The translations under genes were made by a program, and so were the position numbers. From Rubidibacter lacunae KORDI 51-2 (GTDB taxonomy: Bacteria > Cyanobacteriota > Cyanobacteriia > Cyanobacteriales > Rubidibacteraceae), in the NCBI RefSeq assembly GCF_000473895.1, contig NZ_ASSJ01000015.1:1-40120 (forward strand): 40,120 nucleotides of DNA, read 5' to 3'. Below, in pieces: positions 5,697 to 39,999 of the stretch (position 1 is its first letter; each line of letters opens with the position of its first letter). The notes beneath the pieces are model-generated. The model was not told where the DNA came from, did not search any database, and was given only the letters and a program-made list of their open reading frames with translations.

Positions 5697-6082
5697 TGAC
5701 GATAGGCTCTATGCTAGCACCCAACAAAGCATCCCCCCAGCTCTAGAGTTGGAGGGATGCAAATGCTGTGGAGTGCGACCGCGACGCCGTCTTACCTCAG
5801 CTTCTGACCTCATGATTCAAATGGGATTCGGCGTTCTCGCTTGAAGTTTCCGAGTACGATGCCCGGTCTACTGCCACGAGAGGGCTGATTCCCTCATGGG
5901 GTCAATATGTAGATCAAGAAACAGTATTGGCAGTCACCAACGTCGCCGCCGATCCACACTTTGCATTTTACCCAGTCATCTAGGGAATAGTGCAAGTGCA
6001 TTCAAGTTACGATCGTGGATGGTAAGTCCCAATCTTCTCGAGCTGCGGTTGACCGCAGCTGACTGCTGCTGACGGTGACGGC
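5697..6082. other. Intergenic region upstream of the M16 pair
   Basis: No gene is evident in these 386 bases. Apart from the near-palindrome at 5729-5760 there is no repeat, terminator with a T-run, or recognisable RNA. It should contain the promoter of the M16 operon (minus strand) and the 3' end region of the gene at 6083-6391. Confidence 0.55.
5729..5760. repeat. 32-bp near-perfect palindrome
   Basis: The arms are GCATCCC and GGGATGC, with an inner palindrome CCAGCTCTAGAGTTGG in which one position is a G/T pair. One C/A mismatch separates the inner and outer arms. There is no T-run on either side. On the minus strand it falls in the presumed 5' leader of the M16 operon, so it could be an operator or an mRNA hairpin. 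Its centre shares CTAGAGTTGG with the right end of the 100-bp MITE-C elements, so a truncated relic of that family is another option. Confidence 0.6.
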
Positions 6083-10369: not shown

Positions 10370-10514
10370 AGATACAGAAGCGATTAAATCGTTCATCTCC
10401 CGAGCATTAGCCGAGGGACGGAAGTAGGAGCGCGATCGCAGCCAGCAATGGCTAAAAGCAGCTCTGAAGGAACGCGCCTCCAATCGAATCCACAAGCGCA
10501 TTGAGGCAAGCATC

Positions 10515-20115: not shown

Positions 20116-20754
20116 TTGTTCCTCTCATGGGTTTCTACTTTCGCTAACGACACAACATCCTTCTACGGCAGCGAACTGCCCGCCTATGAAAAGCTTGCCA
20201 AGAAAGCACAAGGCTGCAAGGTCATTTCCTTTCCATCGAACCAGATGCGACCATCCCGGCTCGATTACTCGCGTCTGAATACTTTGCTGGAAGAGCGTAG
20301 TTGGCACCAAGCCAATCTGGAAACGCTCGTTTTGCTGCTAAATGCTTCCCACGCACGTGGCAGTTTCTGGATAAGAATCAACGAAGTCGATCGAATTCCA
20401 GCCACCACCTTGCGCTTGATCGACCGCCTCTGGGTCAACAATAGTCACGGACATTTTGGCTTCAGCGTACAGGGTCGAATTCTGAGCGATCTGAGTGCAC
20501 CCGAGTACTACGAACCTCATACATGGGGCCAATTTGCCGATCTCGTGGGTTGGCGCAAACAGGGGATATGGATTGATTACTGCGATCTCAACTTAGCACT
20601 CGATGCACCCACCGGACATTTACCGCGCATCGACCCGATGGGCAAACACTACCCGGGAATATCCTACATATGGCTGCTCGGTGCACTCAGACGCAAGCTG
20701 ATACCAATTTCCACAAAACCTACGACAGATGAGGCAAACAATCCCGATAAGTAA
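20116..20754 (+). CDS. GUN4-domain protein with MITE-derived C-terminus
   Basis: This 212-residue protein contains a GUN4 domain, the tetrapyrrole-binding fold that in the canonical protein stimulates magnesium chelatase. Recognisable parts are LDYSRLNTLLEERSWHQANL (about 50-70), IRINEVDRIPATTLRLIDRL, GHFGFSVQGRIL, WGQFADLVGWRKQG and APTGHLPRIDP. The first 45 residues are not GUN4. The start is uncertain: the frame opens with TTG 20116 after a stop at 20104-20106 and has no in-frame ATG before the domain, so a longer gene may have lost its 5' part. Codons 196-212 lie inside MITE-C copy 2, which therefore supplies the tail and stop. Probably a paralogue rather than the main gun4 gene. Confidence 0.8.
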   Translation: MFLSWVSTFANDTTSFYGSELPAYEKLAKKAQGCKVISFPSNQMRPSRLDYSRLNTLLEERSWHQANLETLVLLLNASHARGSFWIRINEVDRIPATTLRLIDRLWVNNSHGHFGFSVQGRILSDLSAPEYYEPHTWGQFADLVGWRKQGIWIDYCDLNLALDAPTGHLPRIDPMGKHYPGISYIWLLGALRRKLIPISTKPTTDEANNPDK

Positions 20755-20800
20755 AGGGTTCCCTTATATGTTCTGTCGCAGCACATTCTAGAGTTGGAAT
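20701..20800. mobile_element. MITE-C, copy 2 (100 bp)
   Basis: It runs from ATACCAATTT to TCTAGAGTTGGAAT and is 100 bases long, like the copy at 10836. The inner inverted parts ACGACAGA and TCTGTCGC are clear. CAGTTGCC follows both copies within two bases, so the homologous unit may extend slightly beyond the stated right end. The left 54 bases are coding sequence of the GUN4-domain gene. Confidence 0.75.
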
Positions 20801-20830
20801 GACAGTTGCCTGAGCGGTCGATATCATGCC

Positions 20831-20989
20831 TCAAATTTCGTTGCGAGAGTGCTTAAGGAGCATGTATTTGGACGAATGGTGAATGAGATCGGAAGGAAGT
20901 TGTTGAGAGCGATCGGGCAGAGAAGAGCAGCAATGTGGATTGGGTTGAAGAACCTGGCATACAAGGTAAAGTGGATGAATACTTGCTGA
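20831..20989 (+). pseudogene. IS transposase C-terminal fragment
   Basis: The frame reads VARVLKEHVFGRMVNEIGRK, then LLRAIGQRRAAMWIGLKNLA and YKVKWMNTC before the stop at 20987-20989. This corresponds to the end of IS5-group transposases (RVEHVFGxMxNxMGGKxIRxIGxxRAxxxIGLxNLxYN). No start or N-terminal catalytic part is present, so it is a relic. It begins 30 bases after MITE-C. Confidence 0.75.
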
Positions 20990-21562
20990 ATCGAGCGTGA
21001 GAAGTTAAGGATAGAAGAAAAAAAGTGGCAGGCTGGAGAGGAAGTTCATGCTCCTCTGCTTCAGATCGAAAGACTGGTTTGTCGAGCCAGAGTTTGGTGG
21101 CAGAATGGCACCTGAGTACAAATTTATCGAGGCTAACTTTGGGTTTTCATTGGTAGCAAATAAAACTATTTTATATTTAGCAAGACATCAACTATATCAC
21201 CCGAGAAATGGTTGATTGCTTTGTAGGCAAACGAAACTGTAGATCGGTACATCAACCCAGGCAATCTTTACTCAGTTTTTTTTATTAATGTACGGTTGCA
21301 TATATGGACTTTTAACAAGCCTACAAAAGTGTAATTCGCATCCAGAGACAACCCCGGGCAGGGAAAGCGACTTGGCAATCCACTCATGTCGAACGCATCA
21401 ATAATTAATTGAGACAGCGGATCTCTAGATTGGTCAGGAGGAGCTTATCTTTTTTTAGGACGTTGGAAAATCACATTTGTATCCTTTAGTACCTCATGCA
21501 TGGCTATATTGCAGTGATTACAACGGTTTTAGCCTCCATCACCACTTATAAACCACTACATT
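20990..21562. other. AT-richer gene-free stretch
   Basis: No gene is recognisable. The sequence is noticeably richer in A and T than its surroundings and lacks HIP1 sites, in keeping with old mobile DNA. A 25-codon hydrophobic frame at about 21496-21573 ends inside MITE-A but has no ribosome binding site and is not called. Confidence 0.45.
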
Positions 21563-21793
21563 GGGCTTGCTGAAAAAGTCCACAAAGTGAATTTAGGGGA
21601 CAGAAAAGTGAATTTAGGGGACAGAGAGCTCATGAAATCAGGCTTTCGCCATCTAGCCCCAGATTTTCGCCCCAAGATCTCGGCTCAAGTGCAAGGGTTT
21701 TGAGGCTCTAGCAACCATAACCTTGCACTTCTCTGACGCAGAAAACGCTGGAACCTTCTCGCTGAAACAATTCCAGCCTTTTTCAGCAAGCCC
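21563..21793. mobile_element. MITE-A, copy 1 (231 bp) with 6-bp target duplication
   Basis: Perfect terminal inverted repeats GGGCTTGCTGAAAAAG and CTTTTTCAGCAAGCCC bound the element. The host sequence TACATT is duplicated exactly on both sides (21557-21562 and 21794-21799). An internal inverted repeat AAGTGCAAGG / CCTTGCACTT is also present. Compared with copy 2 at 27513 it is inverted and carries a 21-bp tandem duplication of a unit containing GTGAATTTAGGGGACAGA, which accounts for the whole length difference. It ends 18 bases from the 3' end of the metalloprotease gene. Confidence 0.92.
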
Positions 21794-21810
21794 TACATTG
21801 GTGCGTTTGC

Positions 21811-22719
21811 TTACCCCCTCTGGCGCGAAACCCGATCGCGCTGACTCCAAATGTAAGGGCGTGCATGCTGTCCGTCGAGCGAGCGGTCGTCGTCGCTATC
21901 GTTGCCGCGATTACCTGTTTGCTCGGTCAGCAGCAGCCAGCCAAGGCGCGTCGGTTGCTGGTAAATGCGCTTCAGTGTGTTGATATCGCGAGCCGAGATC
22001 TTGGGTGACTCTGGGACGTGGGCTGCGTAGAGGGCGTCTCCAGGATCGGGACTGTGTCCCCAAATCCCCAGAGCATGACCGAGCTCGTGCCGTGCAGTTG
22101 CTAGCGTGCGCGCCGCCGACTGCTCGGGACCGATCTCTACGGTCATGCGCTGCAAAAGGCTTTCGGAGCCGTCCGGGTGCGAGCGCGCGTAAAACTCGAA
22201 ACGGGTCTGAGCCGTTCGCGCCGCTCCGAATTCAGTTAAGCCCGTAATGCGATCGCGCACGATTGCTAGGGGTGGGCGACGGCGAGCGATCGCAATGTCG
22301 GCGTCGTCTCGCATCTCTACCTCAGTCAACGGCAGATAAACCGACCACTCGCGCACGGCAGCAAGAACGCTCGCCCGCCATTGCCCAAATCGCTCGCCAG
22401 CTGATGTCGGGGCTGACTCGGACGAACGGTCGATCCAGACGCGAACGGGAAATTCCGTCCACACGAGATAGCCCAACAGCGTTGGCTCAACCTGCCCAAA
22501 ATAGTCACCAGCCGACGTAACGTCCCAAGCTTCCAAGCTCGGCGGCAGTGGATGTGCCTGTAGTTCCGGGAAGGGAGGCGTGGAGATCTCTGGAGGTGAT
22601 TCAGATAGAGGTGATTCAGAGCCTCCGCTCGGCAGCAACCAGCTCCAAACCAATACTGTGCAAAGCACAAAGCCCAACAGGATAACTACCGCGCGCGATC
22701 GCCACTGCATCGTTACCAA
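21811..22719 (-). CDS. Secreted matrixin-like zinc metalloprotease
   Basis: This 302-residue protein starts with a hydrophobic signal or anchor (about residues 9-30, VVILLGFVLCTVLVWSW), then a Pro/Ser-rich linker. The zinc motif ARHELGHALGIWGHS provides HExxHxxGxxxH-type ligands, followed by SPKISARDINTLKRIYQQPT, the usual ending of peptidase M10 (matrixin-like) domains. PVRVWIDRSSES and EWSVYLPLTEVE match the substrate-binding upper domain. It should act outside the cytoplasmic membrane. The last 30 residues are not domain-like, and MITE-A lies just beyond the stop, so the 3' end may have been altered by that insertion. secG lies 49 bases upstream on the same strand. Confidence 0.85.
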   Translation of the reverse strand: MVTMQWRSRAVVILLGFVLCTVLVWSWLLPSGGSESPLSESPPEISTPPFPELQAHPLPPSLEAWDVTSAGDYFGQVEPTLLGYLVWTEFPVRVWIDRSSESAPTSAGERFGQWRASVLAAVREWSVYLPLTEVEMRDDADIAIARRRPPLAIVRDRITGLTEFGAARTAQTRFEFYARSHPDGSESLLQRMTVEIGPEQSAARTLATARHELGHALGIWGHSPDPGDALYAAHVPESPKISARDINTLKRIYQQPTRLGWLLLTEQTGNRGNDSDDDRSLDGQHARPYIWSQRDRVSRQRG

Positions 22720-22767
22720 CCGTTGTTTCTCTAAGGCTGGCCGCCCCCATGAAAGTTTCCCACCAGT

Positions 22768-22998
22768 CTATCCGAGCCAGCCCGCACTCAGGACGATCGT
22801 CAGACCAATGAAGATCGATGCCAGTACCCACGTGATGCGATTGAGGGATTGCTCGGCGCTCTTCGCGCTGGTAAACAGCTGCGCCTGGCCGCCAATACCA
22901 CCCAGACCGTCGCCCTTCGGGCTGTGCAATAGAACAAGAACGACTAGTAAAGCTGCCGAAACGACCCAAATAATTTCTGCGAGCTGAGTAGCTTTCAT
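22768..22998 (-). CDS. secG: Preprotein translocase subunit SecG
   Basis: This 76-residue protein has two membrane helices (about 6-25 and 54-75) separated by a loop containing LLHSPKGDGLGGIGGQAQLF, the SecG signature. It joins SecY and SecE in the protein-conducting channel. It follows gpmI on the same strand after 151 bases; a gpmI-secG pairing is frequent in cyanobacteria as I recall it. Length and motif are fully normal. Confidence 0.95.
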   Translation of the reverse strand: MKATQLAEIIWVVSAALLVVLVLLHSPKGDGLGGIGGQAQLFTSAKSAEQSLNRITWVLASIFIGLTIVLSAGWLG

Positions 22999-23149
22999 TG
23001 CGCGTGTTTGCCGATCCCCTATTCATTAAAGTTTATGTTTGCCAAAATTGTCGGACCAGAGCGATAACGAGGTCCGACAAACCAACAAAGACGCGTTCGC
23101 GCCAATGAGTTCTCAGCTCTATCGTAACAAGCCGTTCGAGCGGTTGCAG

Positions 23150-24745
23150 CTAGGATAGGCGCACGGGCATGCGGTTGGGTGTTATGGCAACTGGTGCGGG
23201 CAGCAGCAGCGATTGCCCGGTCATTTCCTCTGGCTGTGGAATTTGCAGAATTTCTAGAATTGTTGGCGCGATGTCGGCCAGGCAGCCGCCCGCACGCAGC
23301 TCGACTGCTCCACCGCGGCCGGGAATCTTGCGACCCTCGCCTTCAACCAAAATCAATGGTACCGGATTGGTCGTGTGCGCCGTCCAGGGATTGCCTGCCT
23401 CGTCGCGCATGTATTCGGCGTTGCCATGGTCGGCCGTGATGAGCATCGTTCCGCCCACCTTGCCAACAGCGTCTAGCAACCGACCCAAGGCGAGATCGAC
23501 CGACTCGATTGCTTCCTGGGCGGCCTCGAAGTTGCCCGTATGGCCCACCATATCCGGGTTGGCGTAGTTGATGACTACAAAGGCATACTCCTGCTTGGCG
23601 ATCGCCGCACAAACCCCGTCTGTCACGGCCTCGGCCGACATTGACGGCTGTTTGTCGTAGGTCGTCACCATTGGGCTGTTGACGAGTTCGCGCTCCTCTC
23701 CGCGGAAAGGTATTTCAACACCGCCGTTAAAAAAGTAAGTAACGTGAGGGTATTTCTCCGTTTCCGCCGTCCGGAACTGCTTGAGACTGCGTTCGGCAAT
23801 AACCTCACCGAGGATCTTAGTCAGGTTTTGCGGTTTGAAAGCAACCTCGACCGGTAGGGTTGCGTCGTATTGCGTGAATGTTGCGAAACTAAGCGGTTCG
23901 ATGCGCTCGCGCTCGAAGCCATCGAAGTCGGGCCGGACAAATGCAGCCGATAGCTGACGGGCACGGTCGGGTCGGAAGTTGAAGAAGATTATGCTGTCAC
24001 CAGGCGCAACTGCCCCAGGTGCAACGCGCGTCGGAGGCACGAATTCGTCGGTGATGTCTTGCTCGTAGTAGTCCTTGAGGACTTGCGCGGCCGTGCGGCC
24101 GTCGCCCTCGCCATCCGTCACGATCGCTTCATATGCCTTGCGAATGCGATCCCAGCGGCGATCGCGGTCCATCGCAAAGTAGCGCCCGCTCACCGTTGCA
24201 ATCTGACCGATACCGATCTTTTGGCAGTAGCCTTGAATCAGATCTAGCGCTTGCACGCCGTCGGTTGGGTTCGTGTCGCGTCCGTCTGTGAATGCGTGGA
24301 TGCAGGCATCCTCAATACCTTGTGCTTTCGCCAAGTCGAGTAAGCCTTTGAGGTGCAGTAAGTGTGAATGGACTCCGCCTTCGGAACACAAACCCATTAG
24401 GTGCAGTTTGCCTCCCCGAGCCTTTGTCGCCTTGCATGTATCTACGAGGACAGGATTCGTCAGTAGCGAGCCGTCTTCCACGGCATCGGAGATCCTGACT
24501 AATTCTTGAGGAACGACGCGACCGGCCCCGATATTGAGGTGTCCGACCTCTGAGTTGCCCATCTGCCCTTCTGGCAGACCGACGGCTTTCCCAGAGGTCC
24601 GAATCAGCGTTGTGGGATATGCGGCGCGCAAACTATCCATAACCGGAGTCTTGGCAGCAGAGATGGCGTTCCATTTCCGTGCGTCTCGCTCGCCCCAGCC
24701 ATCTAGGATGACGAGCACCACTGGCGAAATCGGTGCCTGCGTCAT
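23150..24745 (-). CDS. gpmI: 2,3-bisphosphoglycerate-independent phosphoglycerate mutase
   Basis: This 531-residue enzyme interconverts 3- and 2-phosphoglycerate in glycolysis, using two Mn ions and a phosphoserine. VVLVILDGWGERD opens the phosphatase domain. The catalytic serine lies in MGNSEVGHLNIGAGR. The transferase domain shows TDGRDTNPTDGV, GRYFAMDRDRRWDR and FFNFRPDRARQLS. LITADHGNAEYM supplies late metal ligands. ATG 24745 is chosen over ATG 24754 because AAGGA lies eight bases upstream of it, whereas for the upstream ATG the same AAGG would touch the start codon. No defects are seen. Confidence 0.96.
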   Translation of the reverse strand: MTQAPISPVVLVILDGWGERDARKWNAISAAKTPVMDSLRAAYPTTLIRTSGKAVGLPEGQMGNSEVGHLNIGAGRVVPQELVRISDAVEDGSLLTNPVLVDTCKATKARGGKLHLMGLCSEGGVHSHLLHLKGLLDLAKAQGIEDACIHAFTDGRDTNPTDGVQALDLIQGYCQKIGIGQIATVSGRYFAMDRDRRWDRIRKAYEAIVTDGEGDGRTAAQVLKDYYEQDITDEFVPPTRVAPGAVAPGDSIIFFNFRPDRARQLSAAFVRPDFDGFERERIEPLSFATFTQYDATLPVEVAFKPQNLTKILGEVIAERSLKQFRTAETEKYPHVTYFFNGGVEIPFRGEERELVNSPMVTTYDKQPSMSAEAVTDGVCAAIAKQEYAFVVINYANPDMVGHTGNFEAAQEAIESVDLALGRLLDAVGKVGGTMLITADHGNAEYMRDEAGNPWTAHTTNPVPLILVEGEGRKIPGRGGAVELRAGGCLADIAPTILEILQIPQPEEMTGQSLLLPAPVAITPNRMPVRLS

Positions 24746-25041
24746 AACGCCCATCCTTGCATCATTAGCATTCTTCGATTCGATACTACCATCGGGATCG
24801 CTGGACGCCAGTTATCCTTGGCCTAACATTCTGTATTTTTCATGACAAAATGGCACAATCGACTGCTCGGAATGGTTGTTGCCAGACCCCTTAAGGTGGA
24901 CTCTTTCTAGAAGTTCCGAGTCGGTTCTTTGCCAGTACAACAACTGGACGAATGGCGCAGGCGAGGGCGTTTGGCAACTTTAGGCGCGCGACGATCGTAG
25001 TTCATCTTGCTTTTCAAGGGGCAGTTGAGAGCTAGTGCTAG

Positions 25042-25340
25042 CAACTCGAGTCCGAGATGCGAAGGCGTGCGGATAGTTGGGGGGATAACATCCTAGCCAG
25101 ACTGAAGATGGGCTTCCCAGCGTTTACCAACCCGGGCGCAGCGAGTCTCATAAACATATGAGTTGCTGCCAACTCACGTTCGCCTGAGGCAAGAACCACT
25201 TGATTGAGATAGATACTATGTCCTTCGAACGCGAAAATATGCGAGTGCAGGGTGCGCGCCGTTTTGCCGGTAACAAGTTTTCTTCCTTATGTTTCCAGTG
25301 CGAGTCCGTCCAGATTGTCGGCGTGATATTTCGCACCCAC
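25042..25340 (-). pseudogene. Decayed coding remnant, family not established
   Basis: In one minus-strand frame the sequence reads LSVGAKYHADNLDGLALET, a stop, then GRKLVTGKTARTLHSHIFAF, EGHSIYLNQVVLASGERELA, ATHMFMRLAAPGLVNAGK and on to a stop near 25042. There is no start codon. The text is strongly protein-like. The pattern of a charged start, a LHSHIFAFEG strand and a final VVLASGERELA vaguely recalls hot-dog-fold thioesterases, but that assignment is a guess. Confidence 0.4.
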
Positions 25341-25509
25341 GGATAGCTAAGTTTCAGCGCTCCAGAACGTTGAAAACCCCCTATCTTCTCGTGAAGTCGA
25401 AATTTTGTGTGCGATTGCCTTCAAGGGGATCGCGCCAGCTTGCCCTGTTAGGCATCGAAAGGATGCAGTCAAACACTCCTTTCACCCCAAAATGGCATCG
25501 ACTACCACT

Positions 25510-25760
25510 TCTACTTACATCAGGTGAGCTTCCAGCCAGGCAACTTCTTCGATCGTGTTGAGTAGGGAATATTCGGCAAGCTTCGCGATGCGCGGGCGCA
25601 AAATCCTCAATCCGTTGATTGTCGATGAAATATATGCGCGTTCCTACCACGTCCAACAGCTCAGTCCCAAGATCTTGTAATGCTTTTGAATGATGCTATT
25701 GCGGTATGGCGTCAACCGAGTGCAAGCGTCGTAAGGGTGCATGTACGCCTTCCGGCAGGC
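25510..25760 (-). pseudogene. Decayed coding remnant with stop and frameshift
   Basis: The minus strand reads LRLPEGVHAPLRRLHSVDAI, an amber stop, then LQDLGTELLDVVGTRIYFID and NQRIEDFAPAHREACR. Shifting one frame at about 25580 gives EYSLLNTIEEVAWLEAHLM and a natural-looking stop at about 25516. Both halves look like one original protein broken by a frameshift. The family is not recognised. It may or may not be the same ancestral locus as 25042-25340. Confidence 0.35.
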
Positions 25761-25892
25761 GCAATTTGGGCAGTCCCCGACCCGAAAAAGCGATCGCTAA
25801 CCCCCCAGTGCCCGGCAAGATCCAGAAAATGCTTCCCACCCTGCGACAGAATTAACTCGCTGTCGTTCCAAAGCTGTGATTTGCCTGACTAG

Positions 25893-25915
25893 CCTGCCAC
25901 ATTAAGGATGGCAGG
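25893..25915 (-). terminator. Hairpin downstream of smpB, possible terminator
   Basis: Arms CCTGCCA and TGGCAGG pair perfectly around a nine-base loop, 43 bases beyond the smpB stop. Flanking TTGCCTG and CAGGCAA allow an alternative pairing. No clear U-run follows on the minus strand, so efficiency as an intrinsic terminator is doubtful. Confidence 0.4.
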
Positions 25916-25957
25916 CAAACGAAACGCGATCGCGAAGCGCAGGACCGTCGACGGTGT

Positions 25958-26431
25958 CTAATGCCGCTGTACGACACGTTGCATTTCTTTTTTATCTTCG
26001 CGTCGCTTGATACTTTCGCGCTTGTCGTGGAGCTTCTTGCCGCGTGCCAATCCGATGCTGACTTTGATCAGCCCGCGCTTGAGATACATCTTGAGCGGTA
26101 CGAGCGTCAGACCTTTTTGCTCGGTCTGTCCCACAAGCTTGTCAATCTCGCGACGGTGAAGGAGCAACTTGCGCGTGCGCTTCGGATCGTGATTGAAATA
26201 TTGACCGCTTGCTTGATAGGGCGAGATATGAATGTTCAGCAGCCAGGCTTCGCCTTTCCGGATAAGGGCATAGCCGTCTTGCATGTTCACTCGTCCGGCG
26301 CGGACGGACTTCACTTCCGTCCCGATCAGCTGGATGCCAGCTTCGAAGGTTTCCAGGATCTCGTAGAGGTGTCGGGCTTTGCGATTGTCGCTAACAATCT
26401 TTATGCCTTCCGAGCCGTTCGTTGCTGCCAT
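25958..26431 (-). CDS. smpB: SsrA-binding protein SmpB
   Basis: The 157-residue protein binds tmRNA and delivers it to stalled ribosomes in trans-translation. Typical segments are SDNRKARHLYEILETFEAGI, GTEVKSVRAGRVNMQDGYA, LNIHISPYQASGQYFNHDP and RTRKLLLHRREIDKL, with the basic tail GLARGKKLHDKRESIKRRED that enters the decoding site. Full length and intact. The start MAATNGSEGIKIV is close to usual SmpB starts. The tmRNA gene itself is not in this window. Confidence 0.97.
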   Translation of the reverse strand: MAATNGSEGIKIVSDNRKARHLYEILETFEAGIQLIGTEVKSVRAGRVNMQDGYALIRKGEAWLLNIHISPYQASGQYFNHDPKRTRKLLLHRREIDKLVGQTEQKGLTLVPLKMYLKRGLIKVSIGLARGKKLHDKRESIKRREDKKEMQRVVQRH

Positions 26432-26512
26432 GGGAGAAATGCGTGCGTCTGTTTCCTCATTGTGCAGCGAATGCGTTAGTAGGCAGCTGGTGTACAGTTT
26501 CTTAACGAAAGC

Positions 26513-26541
26513 TTGACATCGCCCCTGAGAACTGTAACGCT
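26513..26541 (+). promoter_or_regulatory. Predicted promoter with the same layout as 10341
   Basis: TTGACA at 26513 is followed after 16 bases by TAACGCT at 26535, and GATACAGAAGC begins 30 bases from the -35, exactly as in the promoter at 10341. Shared bases include TTGACAT, TGTAAC or CGTAAC, and GATACAGAAGC. It points toward the terminator at 26732. Confidence 0.5.
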
Positions 26542-26542
26542 G

Positions 26543-26764
26543 GATACAGAAGCAGTGAGCTTCCCTCCCGGTTGCGGTCGATCGAATCCTGGCTGATTTT
26601 CTTCTAGGAGGTACCGTCTGTAAAGGGAGTTCGCCGTTGCACCGCGTTATTTCCGCATTGTGCCCCGCATCAAGGCACTAATGTCGCGAACGTTAGCGTG
26701 TTAGCGCGGCTGACAAGGTAGGTAGGGAGACAGGACGCTCGTTATTTATTGAGCGTCCTTTTTC
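26543..26764 (+). ncRNA. Candidate small transcript of about 220 nt without a recognised gene
   Basis: A promoter-like sequence at 26513 and a strong intrinsic terminator at 26732-26764 bound a segment with no recognisable protein. A perfect AGGAGG occurs at about 26608, but no ATG, GTG or TTG stands 5-10 bases beyond it. One frame gives a basic, conserved-looking text (APRYFRIVPRIKALMSRTLA) ending in a stop, without a start codon. It could be a regulatory RNA, a leader RNA, or a small gene that has lost its start. Known cyanobacterial RNAs (Yfr1, 6S, tmRNA) were not recognised in it. Confidence 0.35.
26732..26764 (+). terminator. Strong Rho-independent terminator
   Basis: AGGACGCTC and GAGCGTCCT pair perfectly over nine bases around a ten-base AT-rich loop and are followed by a T-run (TTTTTCTTG). 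It lies between the plus-strand candidate transcript and the convergent gene 26866-27291, and could serve mainly the former. Confidence 0.88.
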
Positions 26765-26865
26765 TTGTTTGGTGCTTTATGTTGATTCAACGCTGCGTCC
26801 AGTGTGCCAGCCACGTTCGAGTTAGTCGGTTGCAGTGCCGAACGCCTGCAAACCGTGCGCCAAAC

Positions 26866-27291
26866 TCAGGCAGAGGGTGGTGCGTCGGCATCGTCGTCGC
26901 GCGCAGGCGTCAGGGCATCCCATGCCGCGCGCGCAGCATCTTGGACGCGATCGCCCAAGCTGGCAACGTCGCGAACGAGAGCATCCCAGTTCTTTTCGGC
27001 ATCGGCGCGCATCATCTCGACCGCCTGCTCGATGCGCTCGGGGTCGAAGAGATCGGTTGCCTCAACCTCTTTACGGGCGCGACGTACAGCTTCGAGGTAG
27101 TTATCAAGGGCAAACTCGCCAGCTTTCTGGGCTTCGACTTGGGCTTTACGCGCGATTGCCTCGATCAGGCTGCGCGTTTCCGCTCGAACCTGCTCGGAGG
27201 CCCCGGGCATGTGTTGGTCGACGAGGGCACCAGCGCGATCGTTAGCCTCGATGATTGCGCTTTCGCGGGGTAATTGTGATTCTTCAGTCAT
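26866..27291 (-). CDS. Small charged alpha-helical protein, function unknown
   Basis: The 141-residue protein is almost entirely helical and charged, rich in Ala, Glu, Arg and Asp: LIEAIARKAQVEAQKAGEFA, DNYLEAVRRARKEVEA, then FDPERIEQAVEMMRADAEKN and a final acidic tail. No membrane segment or signal is present. ATG 27291 is preferred over the upstream GTG at 27300 because GAGGT lies seven bases before it. I do not recognise a named family. Coiled-coil-like repeats suggest a structural or scaffold partner, but this is only inference. Confidence 0.75.
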   Translation of the reverse strand: MTEESQLPRESAIIEANDRAGALVDQHMPGASEQVRAETRSLIEAIARKAQVEAQKAGEFALDNYLEAVRRARKEVEATDLFDPERIEQAVEMMRADAEKNWDALVRDVASLGDRVQDAARAAWDALTPARDDDADAPPSA

Positions 27292-27512
27292 AATGGACAC
27301 CTCACTCGGTTGCGTCGCGACTGCTCAACCGTCTCCATATTAATCCGGCTGTTGAGATCGCGCTGCCTTCCCCGGTCATCGAGCTTGTCAATTCGGAATG
27401 GAAGTGATGCCGAGGTAAAAAAGGTGAGTATCGGATGCTAGAGGTAGAAACTGCGACTCGAGGAAATTATGATTCTTGGCGTCTTCCACGTTCAAGTTCC
27501 CGAGAGTACCTA

Positions 27513-27722
27513 GGGCTTGCTGAAAAAGGCTGGAATGGTTTCAGCGAGAAGGTTCCAGCGTTTTCTGCGTCAGAGAAGTGCAAGGTTATGGTTGCTAGAG
27601 CCTCAAAACCCTTGCACTTGAGCCGAGAACTAGGGGCGAAAATCTGGGGCTAGATGGCGAAAGCCTGATTTCATGAGCTCTCTGTCCCCTAAATTCGCTT
27701 TGTGGACTTTTTCAGCAAGCCC
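27513..27722. mobile_element. MITE-A, copy 2 (210 bp) with 6-bp target duplication
   Basis: The same perfect ends (GGGCTTGCTGAAAAAG and its complement) as the copy at 21563, in opposite orientation, with TACCTA duplicated at 27507-27512 and 27723-27728. It lacks the 21-bp tandem duplication of copy 1. The two copies differ by only a few bases elsewhere, so they moved recently or share a recent source. Target sites of both copies begin with TA. Confidence 0.92.
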
Positions 27723-27724
27723 TA

Positions 27725-27896
27725 CCTAGCTTGGATTATTCATGAACTCTTATGAGGAGACCCTAAACCTATTGCCTTGCAAGACTTGCAGACTTTTTCG
27801 CTCAATCACAGTGCGTTTCTATACGCGAAGATTGGAGCCTTCTCAGAGCAAGGGTTTGAGGCTTCGTCAAAATCTTCGTTAATAAACCAGGCTAGG
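27725..27896. mobile_element. MITE-B, copy 1 (172 bp)
   Basis: The ends CCTAGCTTGGATTATTCA and AATAAACCAGGCTAGG are inverted repeats with a few mismatches. The host tetranucleotide CTAG is present at both boundaries (27726-27729 and 27892-27895), consistent with a 4-bp target duplication. It is the same length as the copy at 30886 and similar throughout, for example AGACTTGCAGACTTTTTCGC. The right end abuts a broken transposase frame. Confidence 0.82.
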
Positions 27897-28180
27897 AACT
27901 CCGGGCACTGCTGCGCAAGGAGAAGCATCTGTCATTGAGAGATCGCTTGCAAGTGTGCTACTTGATTCGAGCCGAGCAGTTGACGGTCTCGACCCCAGCG
28001 TGGGTGCTAGGCAAACATCAATGCACACTCCAGCGCCGGCGCGCACGTTTTCGCCTGGGCAGTCAGCCACAACTGCGGGCGCAGTCCACTAGCCCCGGTC
28101 GGCCGCATGTCATCCCCGATTGCGCGGTGCGCTTCCTCCGGAAGCAACTCCTGGTCCCGGTGGGTGGGTTCGAGCGCTAA
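27896..28180 (+). pseudogene. IS630-like transposase N-terminal fragment
   Basis: From directly after MITE-B the frame reads ELRALLRKEKHLSLRDRLQV, CYLIRAEQLTVSTPAWVLGK and HQCTLQRRRARFRLG, then GRPHVIPDCAVRFLRKQL, stopping at 28178-28180. The first part matches the winged-helix start of IS630-type transposases (RERIQVLYLLKxxxxSxxxxAxxLGxxRxTVQRWL). There is no start codon and no DDE catalytic region, so the gene is broken; MITE-B may have cut its 5' end. Confidence 0.6.
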
Positions 28181-28318
28181 ACATGCATTTAGCAATGACT
28201 GCTTACCGCACTGGGTATCAAGCCGGACTAGACCGCCGCCAATCACTTGATGCGCACCGGCTGCAAGCAAGATCGAAGGCTGATTGAGAGACAGACTCAC
28301 GTGTCTCACTCTACGCAA

Positions 28319-28370
28319 GCTTCAGGCGAGAATTCAGGGGTTTCAGGAAGATGTGTCAGTCAGCCAAGAC
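28319..28370 (+). repeat. About 50-bp sequence shared with 39787-39836
   Basis: The word TTCAGGGGTTTCAGGA, then GATGTGTCAGTCAGCCAA, occurs in both places with a few differences around them. The shared block also includes a GGCGA-A-TTCAGGGG left part. Both copies sit in relic-rich DNA, so they are probably fragments of one mobile element. Confidence 0.55.
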
Positions 28371-28707
28371 TTGAAAGATTCGCGGCCGCGCTTTCGACGG
28401 CAGAGTCATTAGTGGCATGCGGCTTTAAATAAATTTAGGGGCGGAACCGTCACTGGAAACTCTTACCAGATGAATGTGGTTGCGCCCGCGGTATATAACT
28501 TCATTCACGACGCTCTATCTGTCACGAGAATTCTTTGATTTAGAGTCATTAGAAACCGATTTGGAGGTGCTAAATACCCAGATCGTTCGTCTTCGCTAAA
28601 ATTGATTGCAGCTATACCTTGTCAAAGTTGTAGCCCACCACCACTACTTTTTTGACCCTGCGCGCACCAACAACCGAAAGCTTGCGAGCGACCGAACTAG
28701 TTGGGAT

Positions 28708-30401: not shown

Positions 30402-31142
30402 GCAAAACTCTCCACCAGCAACTTCTCCATCAATTATCGACTAGAACTCTCAACAGGTGACCGACCGCCGCTGGTGTTGGCGAGTAATTGCTCCAGGCTC
30501 CAGGGAGAAAACCGAGACCTGATAAACAAGCTGAGTAACTTAAGCTATGGGTTGTCGCGACGCGGGAGTTTGCGGGTACGGGTCTGCATATCCACAACTC
30601 ACAAGCTCATACCAGCTCAAGGAAGTGCTCCGATTGATGGCAATTCGGGAACCCTTATTGCTATTGGGCACCTCGGAAAATTGCCGGATTATGGCCTGCC
30701 GGCGATTGCAATACCCGCGCTGCCGTGCCGCCCATCGGTCTTAAGCAAAAGAATCGAGGTGGCCTTTAGATTTTTTGCTTTATCTGTCGAAGGCATTGAG
30801 CCGATTTATATCACAATTCAGCACTCGCAACCCTTGCCGGAGGCAGTTTAGCCGATTGCTTGGCTGCGGCCAGATAACTACTTTGCCTAGCCTGGATTAT
30901 TCATGAACTCTTACGCGGAGACCCTAAAGCTTTTGCCGTGAAAGACTTGCAGACTTTTTCGCTCAATGACAGTGCGTTTCTATTCACCTAGATTGGAGCC
31001 TAGTCAGAGCAAAGGTTTGAGGCCTCGTAAAAATCTTCGTGAATAATCCAGGCTAGGAGAGGCTCCGAAGCAAAGTAGGCGAGCTCAGTTTCCCTCCCAG
31101 TACATTCCACCGAGGTGCCACCGCGACGGCGATCGCCCAACC
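30402..31142. other. Intergenic region holding MITE-B copy 2
   Basis: No gene was supported. A 125-codon plus-strand frame at 30474-30851 lacks any domain or ribosome binding site and is not called. MITE-B copy 2 occupies 30886-31057 and separates mazG from the histidine kinase gene. Confidence 0.5.
30886..31057. mobile_element. MITE-B, copy 2 (172 bp)
   Basis: Ends CCTAGCCTGGATTATTCA and TGAATAATCCAGGCTAGG are perfect inverted repeats over 18 bases, and CTAG stands at both host junctions. This copy has the better preserved ends, while copy 1 at 27725 shows a few substitutions. Same orientation as copy 1. No coding capacity. Confidence 0.85.
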
Positions 31143-39587: not shown

Positions 39588-39761
39588 GGACCCGTCAGAG
39601 TCGACCGCCTCGACCATCTAATCTTGATAGTTGCCGATTTCGTTCGCGCGTGCTCGTTTGACGAAGGCGTGTTGGACATGCAAGCCATTACGTTCGGCAA
39701 CAACAAAAGGGCGCTGGATTTCGGACTGCCAACCGGGCAAGAGCAGCCAAACCCTGAATGA
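39588..39761 (+). pseudogene. VOC (glyoxalase/bleomycin-resistance) domain fragment
   Basis: The frame reads VRVDRLDHLILIVADFVRAC, then SFDEGVLDMQAITFGNNKRA and LDFGLPTGQEQPNPE before a stop at 39759-39761. This matches the first half of VOC-fold proteins (IDHLVLTVxDIxxxCxFYxxVLGMxVVTFGxGRKALxFG). The aromatic FY pair is now FD, no start codon precedes the domain, and the second half is missing, so it is a broken gene. Confidence 0.65.
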
Positions 39762-39999
39762 CTGAGACAAGTGCCTCAAGCCCCGCAAGTTTATGGCGAA
39801 ATTTCAGGGGTTTCAGGAGATGTGTCAGTCAGCCAAAGCCAAACCTTCCCCACCAGTGGCGCGAAGTCACTCCAAAAGCCGTTCGCCCCCGCCGAGCTCG
39901 CCGATTTTAGTTGCCTGGCGGTTCGCTGCTTGCAGGTGTATATGCTCACCCGAAAGCTCGTGATGTTGAGTTGCTTAGCTGTCCAGTTACCCGCAGGGT

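Follow-up and report, generated by a model that had tools for sequence, protein, structure and literature searches.

The window, a stretch of 40,120 nucleotides from Rubidibacter lacunae KORDI 51-2, carries two MITE copies in inverted orientation (Table 1). Copy 1 is flanked by a GUN4-like frame (20116-20754, +) and a matrixin-like frame (21811-22719, -), and its right-hand duplication ends 11 bp beyond the stop of the latter. The insertion site of copy 2 lies at the margin of a member of a second MITE-like family, and the CCTA of its TACCTA duplication forms the first bases of that element. Members of this second family are about 173 bp long (27725-27897 and 30886-31058) and have ends like CCTAGCCTGGATTATTCA; a genome search found 42 matches for the family, of which two are partial and antisense. 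The window also contains a 64-bp direct repeat (28285-28348 and 39755-39818, 75% identity), and Rfam identified a 6S RNA (5772-5954, -) and a glutamine riboswitch (10388-10478, +), neither of them at the MITE.

Table 1. The two MITE copies and their parts, in window positions.
Feature	Position	Strand	Remarks
MITE copy 1	21563-21793	minus	231 bp; in subfamily of 18
MITE copy 2	27513-27722	plus	210 bp; in subfamily of 18
Target-site duplication TACATT, left flank of copy 1	21557-21562	none	from sequence; exact repeat of 21794-21799
Target-site duplication TACATT, right flank of copy 1	21794-21799	none	from sequence
Target-site duplication TACCTA, left flank of copy 2	27507-27512	none	from sequence
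Target-site duplication TACCTA, right flank of copy 2	27723-27728	none	from sequence
21-bp tandem duplication inside copy 1	21585-21626 (units 21585-21605 and 21606-21626)	minus	
Inner inverted repeat of copy 2, AAGTGCAAGG (27576-27585) / CCTTGCACTT (27610-27619)	27576-27619	plus	from sequence

The initial annotation had described two inverted copies with identical 16-bp ends, exact duplications of TACATT and TACCTA and, within copy 1, a tandem duplication of 21 bp that accounts for the full difference in length. All of this was borne out. By direct reading, the first 16 bp are common to all four ends and both duplications are exact, and a repeat scan of the window recovered the inverted arms (191 nt, 98% complementary, and 49 nt, 92%). 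Aligned in the same orientation, the copies differ by a single 21-bp gap, which is the entire length difference, and by four other bases. Exact matches to the 15-base end occur four times in the window, namely at the four MITE ends; with up to three mismatches allowed, there were six matches versus a shuffle mean of 1.72.

Copy number, target sites and an empty site

The genome assembly of R. lacunae KORDI 51-2 that was searched consists of 99 contigs. A nucleotide search returned 43 MITE matches, and the 15-base end, with at most one mismatch, occurred 88 times in the whole genome, compared with 0 for a reversed control pattern, which puts these ends far above chance. A search with a profile of 11 MITEs, of which two belong to this genome, gave 67 rows: 48 complete or nearly complete copies, seven fragments (six lying at the end of a contig) and 12 weak matches in antisense, which fall on copies already counted. 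The ends of the 48 copies were refined by script, eight matches having been widened by hand beforehand. Their lengths span 206-231 bp, with 35 copies of 210 bp and 12 of 206-209 or 211 bp; copy 1 of the window, at 231 bp, is the only one longer than 215 bp. The outer 12 bp are alike at nine or more positions in 47 of the 48.

The description of the element as a MITE with true target duplications holds genome-wide. Duplications of 6 bp are exact in 42 of the 48 complete copies, carry one mismatch in five and are absent in one. Every exact duplication has the form NANNTN, with A at position 2 and T at position 5 in 42 of 42; T occupies position 1 in 37 and A occupies position 6 in 35, and 30 of the 42 read TANNTA. 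Just outside the duplications, C is at most mildly enriched (16 and 19 of 42).

Clustering divided the 48 copies into subfamilies of 18, 22 and 4 members (mean distances of 1.6, 3.6 and 4.8% from their consensus) and four singletons. Both window copies belong to the subfamily of 18, three members of which are identical; the sequence of copy 2 recurs unchanged at C1:40353 and C35:112916. The low divergence and the identical members of this subfamily fit the recent movement that the initial annotation had read from the clean duplications, but they are no proof of it for the two window copies, and the lineage itself appears to be old.

In two places, MITEs stand back to back and share a single duplication: TACCTA at locus L075 (C4:104017-104226 and C4:104233-104442), and GAGTTA at L076 (C35:1-77 and 84-293) together with L064, at the end of C82. 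The newer copy seems in each case to have used the duplication of the older one as its target. At L078 (C28:302-509), the frame that a MITE seems to interrupt gives a weak helix-turn-helix match (Pfam HTH_32, E 1.1e-4, below the cut-off) and looks like another transposase.

An empty site could be reconstructed at C41:100872, where a MITE with the duplication TACATA splits a squalene-hopene cyclase gene. In Pfam, the joined cyclase frame hits the C-terminal domain of the cyclases (E 6e-44). After removal of the MITE and one TACATA, the DNA aligned without gaps to both paralogues on the same contig (81% over 168 bp and 75% over 185 bp), and the same junction was ungapped over 107 and 86 bp in the cyclase genes of two relatives. 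The joined protein found a match without internal stop in 10 of 19 relatives; the other nine gave no match. As the paralogue DNA runs ungapped through the insertion point, the inserted DNA corresponds exactly to the element plus one 6-bp copy. This evidence is an in-genome comparison of paralogues, at a site other than the two window copies. The surrounding locus (L336, C41:97000-104000) holds three squalene-hopene cyclase-like genes with their 3' ends within about 6.3 kb, and it is the middle gene that the MITE splits, near its 3' end.

Probable partner insertion sequences

Contigs C86, C40 and C44 end inside an IS5-type transposase gene, leaving open frames of 198 aa on C86 and 58 aa each on C40 and C44. 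The 3' part of these remnants closes with the 16 bp of the MITE, identical at 16 of 16 positions. The flanks of these right ends, readable on one side only, are TAATTA, TATTTA and CAGGTA. Inward of the 16 bp in common, the right ends of the resident IS and of the MITE are unlike. No complete partner IS is present in the assembly, in which neither a left end nor the N-terminus of the transposase was found.

The 198-aa fragment matched Pfam DDE_Tnp_1_2 (E 1.1e-31), and its best NCBIfam model was IS5_1 (E 4.4e-44; 151 bits, against a cut-off of 275 that applies to the full protein). Its relatives carry IS5 annotation, and a tblastn search of plasmids with the fragment returned 71 records, including ISAcma17 (71%) and ISMae6 (66%). 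The initial annotation had presupposed an autonomous IS; the likely mobiliser of the MITE is an IS5-family transposase of the ISAcma17/ISMae6 group. The fragment matched 14 of 60 genomes including its own, that is, 13 of 59 relatives. Among the 46 relatives without a match to the fragment, the MITE profile matched 14 at E<=1e-3 and 11 at E<=1e-8, and the partner is thus not always detectable. Co-occurrence of partner and MITE was left out as a statistic because the profile may also match the ends of the ISs.

Ends were paired for 13 elements from other genomes or plasmids. Exact TANNTA duplications were read by eye in eight of the 13 (two copies in each of two genomes, single copies in two more, ISAcma17 and ISMae6), the ends lying 0-4 mismatches from the 16-mer. 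In the other five, whose ends are decayed, rearranged or wrongly paired, an exact duplication is absent. Among IS5 subgroups, duplications of 2-4, 8 or 9 bp are known; the 6-bp duplication of the eight paired relatives lies outside these lengths, which weighs little against the IS5 annotation.

Most of the paired ISs have a leader segment like TAAAAT..AAAACCCTTGCA close before the start codon. In ISAcma17, GTGCAAGG precedes the AAAACCCTTGCA segment and forms with it an inverted repeat around a possible -10 box, and this leader repeat may be a promoter. The MITE carries AAGTGCAAGG..CCTTGCACTT without a good -10; its inner inverted repeat is possibly the counterpart of the transposase leader segment of the ISAcma17 group.

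Occurrence in other cyanobacteria

An exact-pattern search of named genomes yielded six loci, in a Microcoleus MAG, Lyngbya CCAP 1446/10 (two), Tychonema LEGE 06208 and a Prochloraceae MAG (two). Each measures 210-239 bp and is flanked by an exact duplication, TANNTA in five cases and CAATTA in one. Of 195 genomes of the order, 119 contain the end pattern, its own included; the reversed control had five hits in total. The MITE profile matched 89 of the 195 genomes at E<=1e-3. This threshold is too lax, since in a draw of 146 genomes from the phylum, the profile also reached seven genomes outside the order, with E values of 5.2e-5 to 9.6e-4; we therefore quote the result at E<=1e-8, which is 62 of the 195 genomes and 42 of 94 genera, again including its own. 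At most 12 candidates were scored per genome in the survey of 195 and at most 16 in the phylum draw, so genome counts and not copy counts are used from both surveys.

Thirty copies from relatives were compared, 28 of them from the profile and pattern searches (three used in training) and two from the named plasmids of Calothrix PCC 6303 and Pseudanabaena ABRG5-3. A 6-bp duplication is exact in 19, always with A at position 2 and T at position 5; the other 11 have no exact duplication, three of them showing one mismatch. Among the full-profile matches listed outside the own genome (at least 90 rows from 28 genomes), the median length is 208-214 bp in 18 of the 28 genomes, and the remaining medians among the matches listed lie near 202, 219 and 225 bp. 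Helical phasing of the element (210 bp as 20 turns, 231 bp as 22) was considered and dropped, because full-length matches also cluster around those three lengths.

Carriage of the MITE by phages was rejected as well. The 16-mer is found in 112 viral stretches; the 80 of these that were listed include no paired element with a matching duplication and one case of TANNTA before an exact end. Phage records searched with the element of one relative gave no match.

Mobilisation and origin of the element

At 210 bp and without a gene of its own, the MITE is an ordinary kind of element; its recurrence in many cyanobacterial genera is less ordinary. In bacteria, MITEs are generally interpreted as transient products of deletion within a resident IS. 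We consider it highly probable that this one is a non-autonomous element of about 210 bp, moved in trans by an IS5 transposase of the ISAcma17/ISMae6 group and belonging to an old lineage rather than being a fresh IS deletion product. A DDE transposase of this group, supplied in trans, would bind the 16-bp ends and perhaps also recognise the inner inverted repeat. The element would then be moved by cut-and-paste into a 6-bp staggered cut at NANNTN, best at TANNTA, and the cut site would thereby be duplicated. Its source would be an old lineage of near-constant length present in many cyanobacterial genera, and not a fresh deletion of the resident IS.

Alternatively, the MITE of each genus could be a separate internal deletion of that genus's own ISAcma17-group IS, the shared interior being only the IS leader. 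The left 108 bp do resemble some IS leaders in register, to about the start codon of the transposase. With the ends removed, a left-interior profile gave weak in-register matches to five of 14 IS sequences (ISAcma17, E 0.0037; G040, 0.021; ISMae6, 0.048; two copies of one IS, the G004 element, 0.52). It further matched ISMae6 in antisense (E 0.01) and one sequence off register (E 0.76). The corresponding right-interior profile matched none of the 14 IS sequences, which form the whole IS side of this comparison, in place; one match off place had an E value of 0.44. At the MITE loci, by contrast, the right half is in place in 22 of 28 at E<0.01, and in 19 of the 25 outside training, with no match at E<=1 in three of the 28 (L305, L306 and L309), as separate deletions would allow. 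Nine of the ten non-training loci with a left half of at least 50 bits match the right half too. Since the whole profile had retrieved 27 of the 28 loci, and the end pattern alone the other one (L262), this half-by-half test was not blind. Together with the length medians of 208-214 bp in most genomes among the matches listed, these observations make repeated birth from resident ISs unlikely.

Less probable still is mobilisation by a different transposase family that is missing from the assembly and has the same ends by coincidence. It would accommodate both the incomplete resident IS and the profile matches in genomes lacking a transposase match, but the IS5-type remnants agree with the MITE at all 16 terminal bases and adjoin the kind of target that it prefers, and TANNTA duplications recur in eight of 13 paired relatives of the resident IS. 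The least probable reading, and one to which we give very little credence, is that of a domesticated repeat, kept by the host as a terminator, RNA or binding site rather than living on as a transposon. The inner segments of the MITE are conserved across genera, copy 1 closely follows the stop of the matrixin-like ORF, and one orientation has a strong predicted RNA fold (-90.4 kcal/mol, for the native sequence alone). Against this, the subfamilies of 18 and 22 similar copies, with duplications mostly intact, look like bursts. Alignment folding found no compensated pair in the inner hairpin; the four compensated pairs belong to a different helix, in which numerous pairs are broken, and covariation contributes unfavourably (+1.71). 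Neither terminator-like nor promoter-like sites in 20500-28500 were above shuffles. An RNA function was rejected on the lack of an Rfam match at the element and of covariation support in the folding.

Returning to an old lineage moved in trans, its interior is common to MITEs of many genera and only partly and weakly shared with the ISs, which argues that a single old passenger lineage would fit better than repeated deletion. The lineage looks unusually old and well conserved. We suggest tentatively, and with slightly less than even confidence, that a single lineage, descended from one ancestor, has been a long-lived parasite of ISAcma17-type ISs across much of the order, reaching as far as a Pseudanabaena plasmid and far outlasting the usual lifespan of a MITE. 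Selection would have held its length near 211 bp and preserved its inner segments, presumably because transposition requires them in cis. In dozens of genera, an element of 210 bp with a conserved interior of its own occurs beside a defined group of ISs and follows a clean target rule. How such passengers persist longer than their drivers, and which of the inner bases are required by the transposase, can be tested directly with a single transposase and a single DNA of 210 bp.

In the accessible literature, cyanobacterial MITEs are already known as a class. Nezha, a MITE of Anabaena and Nostoc, is reportedly termed active in the title of its paper. It is shorter than the Rubidibacter MITE and has a TA duplication, and is set apart here by description rather than by sequence. 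Within the open-licence literature, we found nothing on TANNTA in transposition or on ISAcma17, and the available text of articles naming ISMae6 contains no description of the present MITE. Anabaena sp. 90 has 147 complete or partial MITEs of 77-541 bp, which, according to the available parts of the report, are mostly intergenic and break some genes (PMC3542288). These cyanobacterial elements are compared by description and not by sequence; unlike in the present case, the authors saw, in the text available, no IS with the same ends (PMC3542288). MITEAba12 of the Moraxellaceae, in the accessible part of its report, is likewise a MITE found across a bacterial family, in other hosts, and the likeness is one of description only (PMC6382973). 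Closer is the 187-bp MITE of Microcystis aeruginosa PCC 7806, which in the available text has some 30 copies and is linked by the authors to ISL3 (PMC11448079). Like the Rubidibacter MITE, it is cyanobacterial, inserts in genes and had its partner inferred from shared ends, whereas its ends (GGCTCTTCG), its 8-bp duplications and its IS family are different (PMC11448079). Of the known elements, ISAcma17 and ISMae6, cyanobacterial IS5-family ISs named in the annotation of plasmid records, differ from the MITE in size (1.70 and 1.68 kb), in carrying a transposase gene and in that the right interior of the MITE was found in neither, but they share with it ends of the type GGGYTTGCTGAAWAAG, the 6-bp TANNTA duplication and possibly the leader segment AAAACCCTTGCA.
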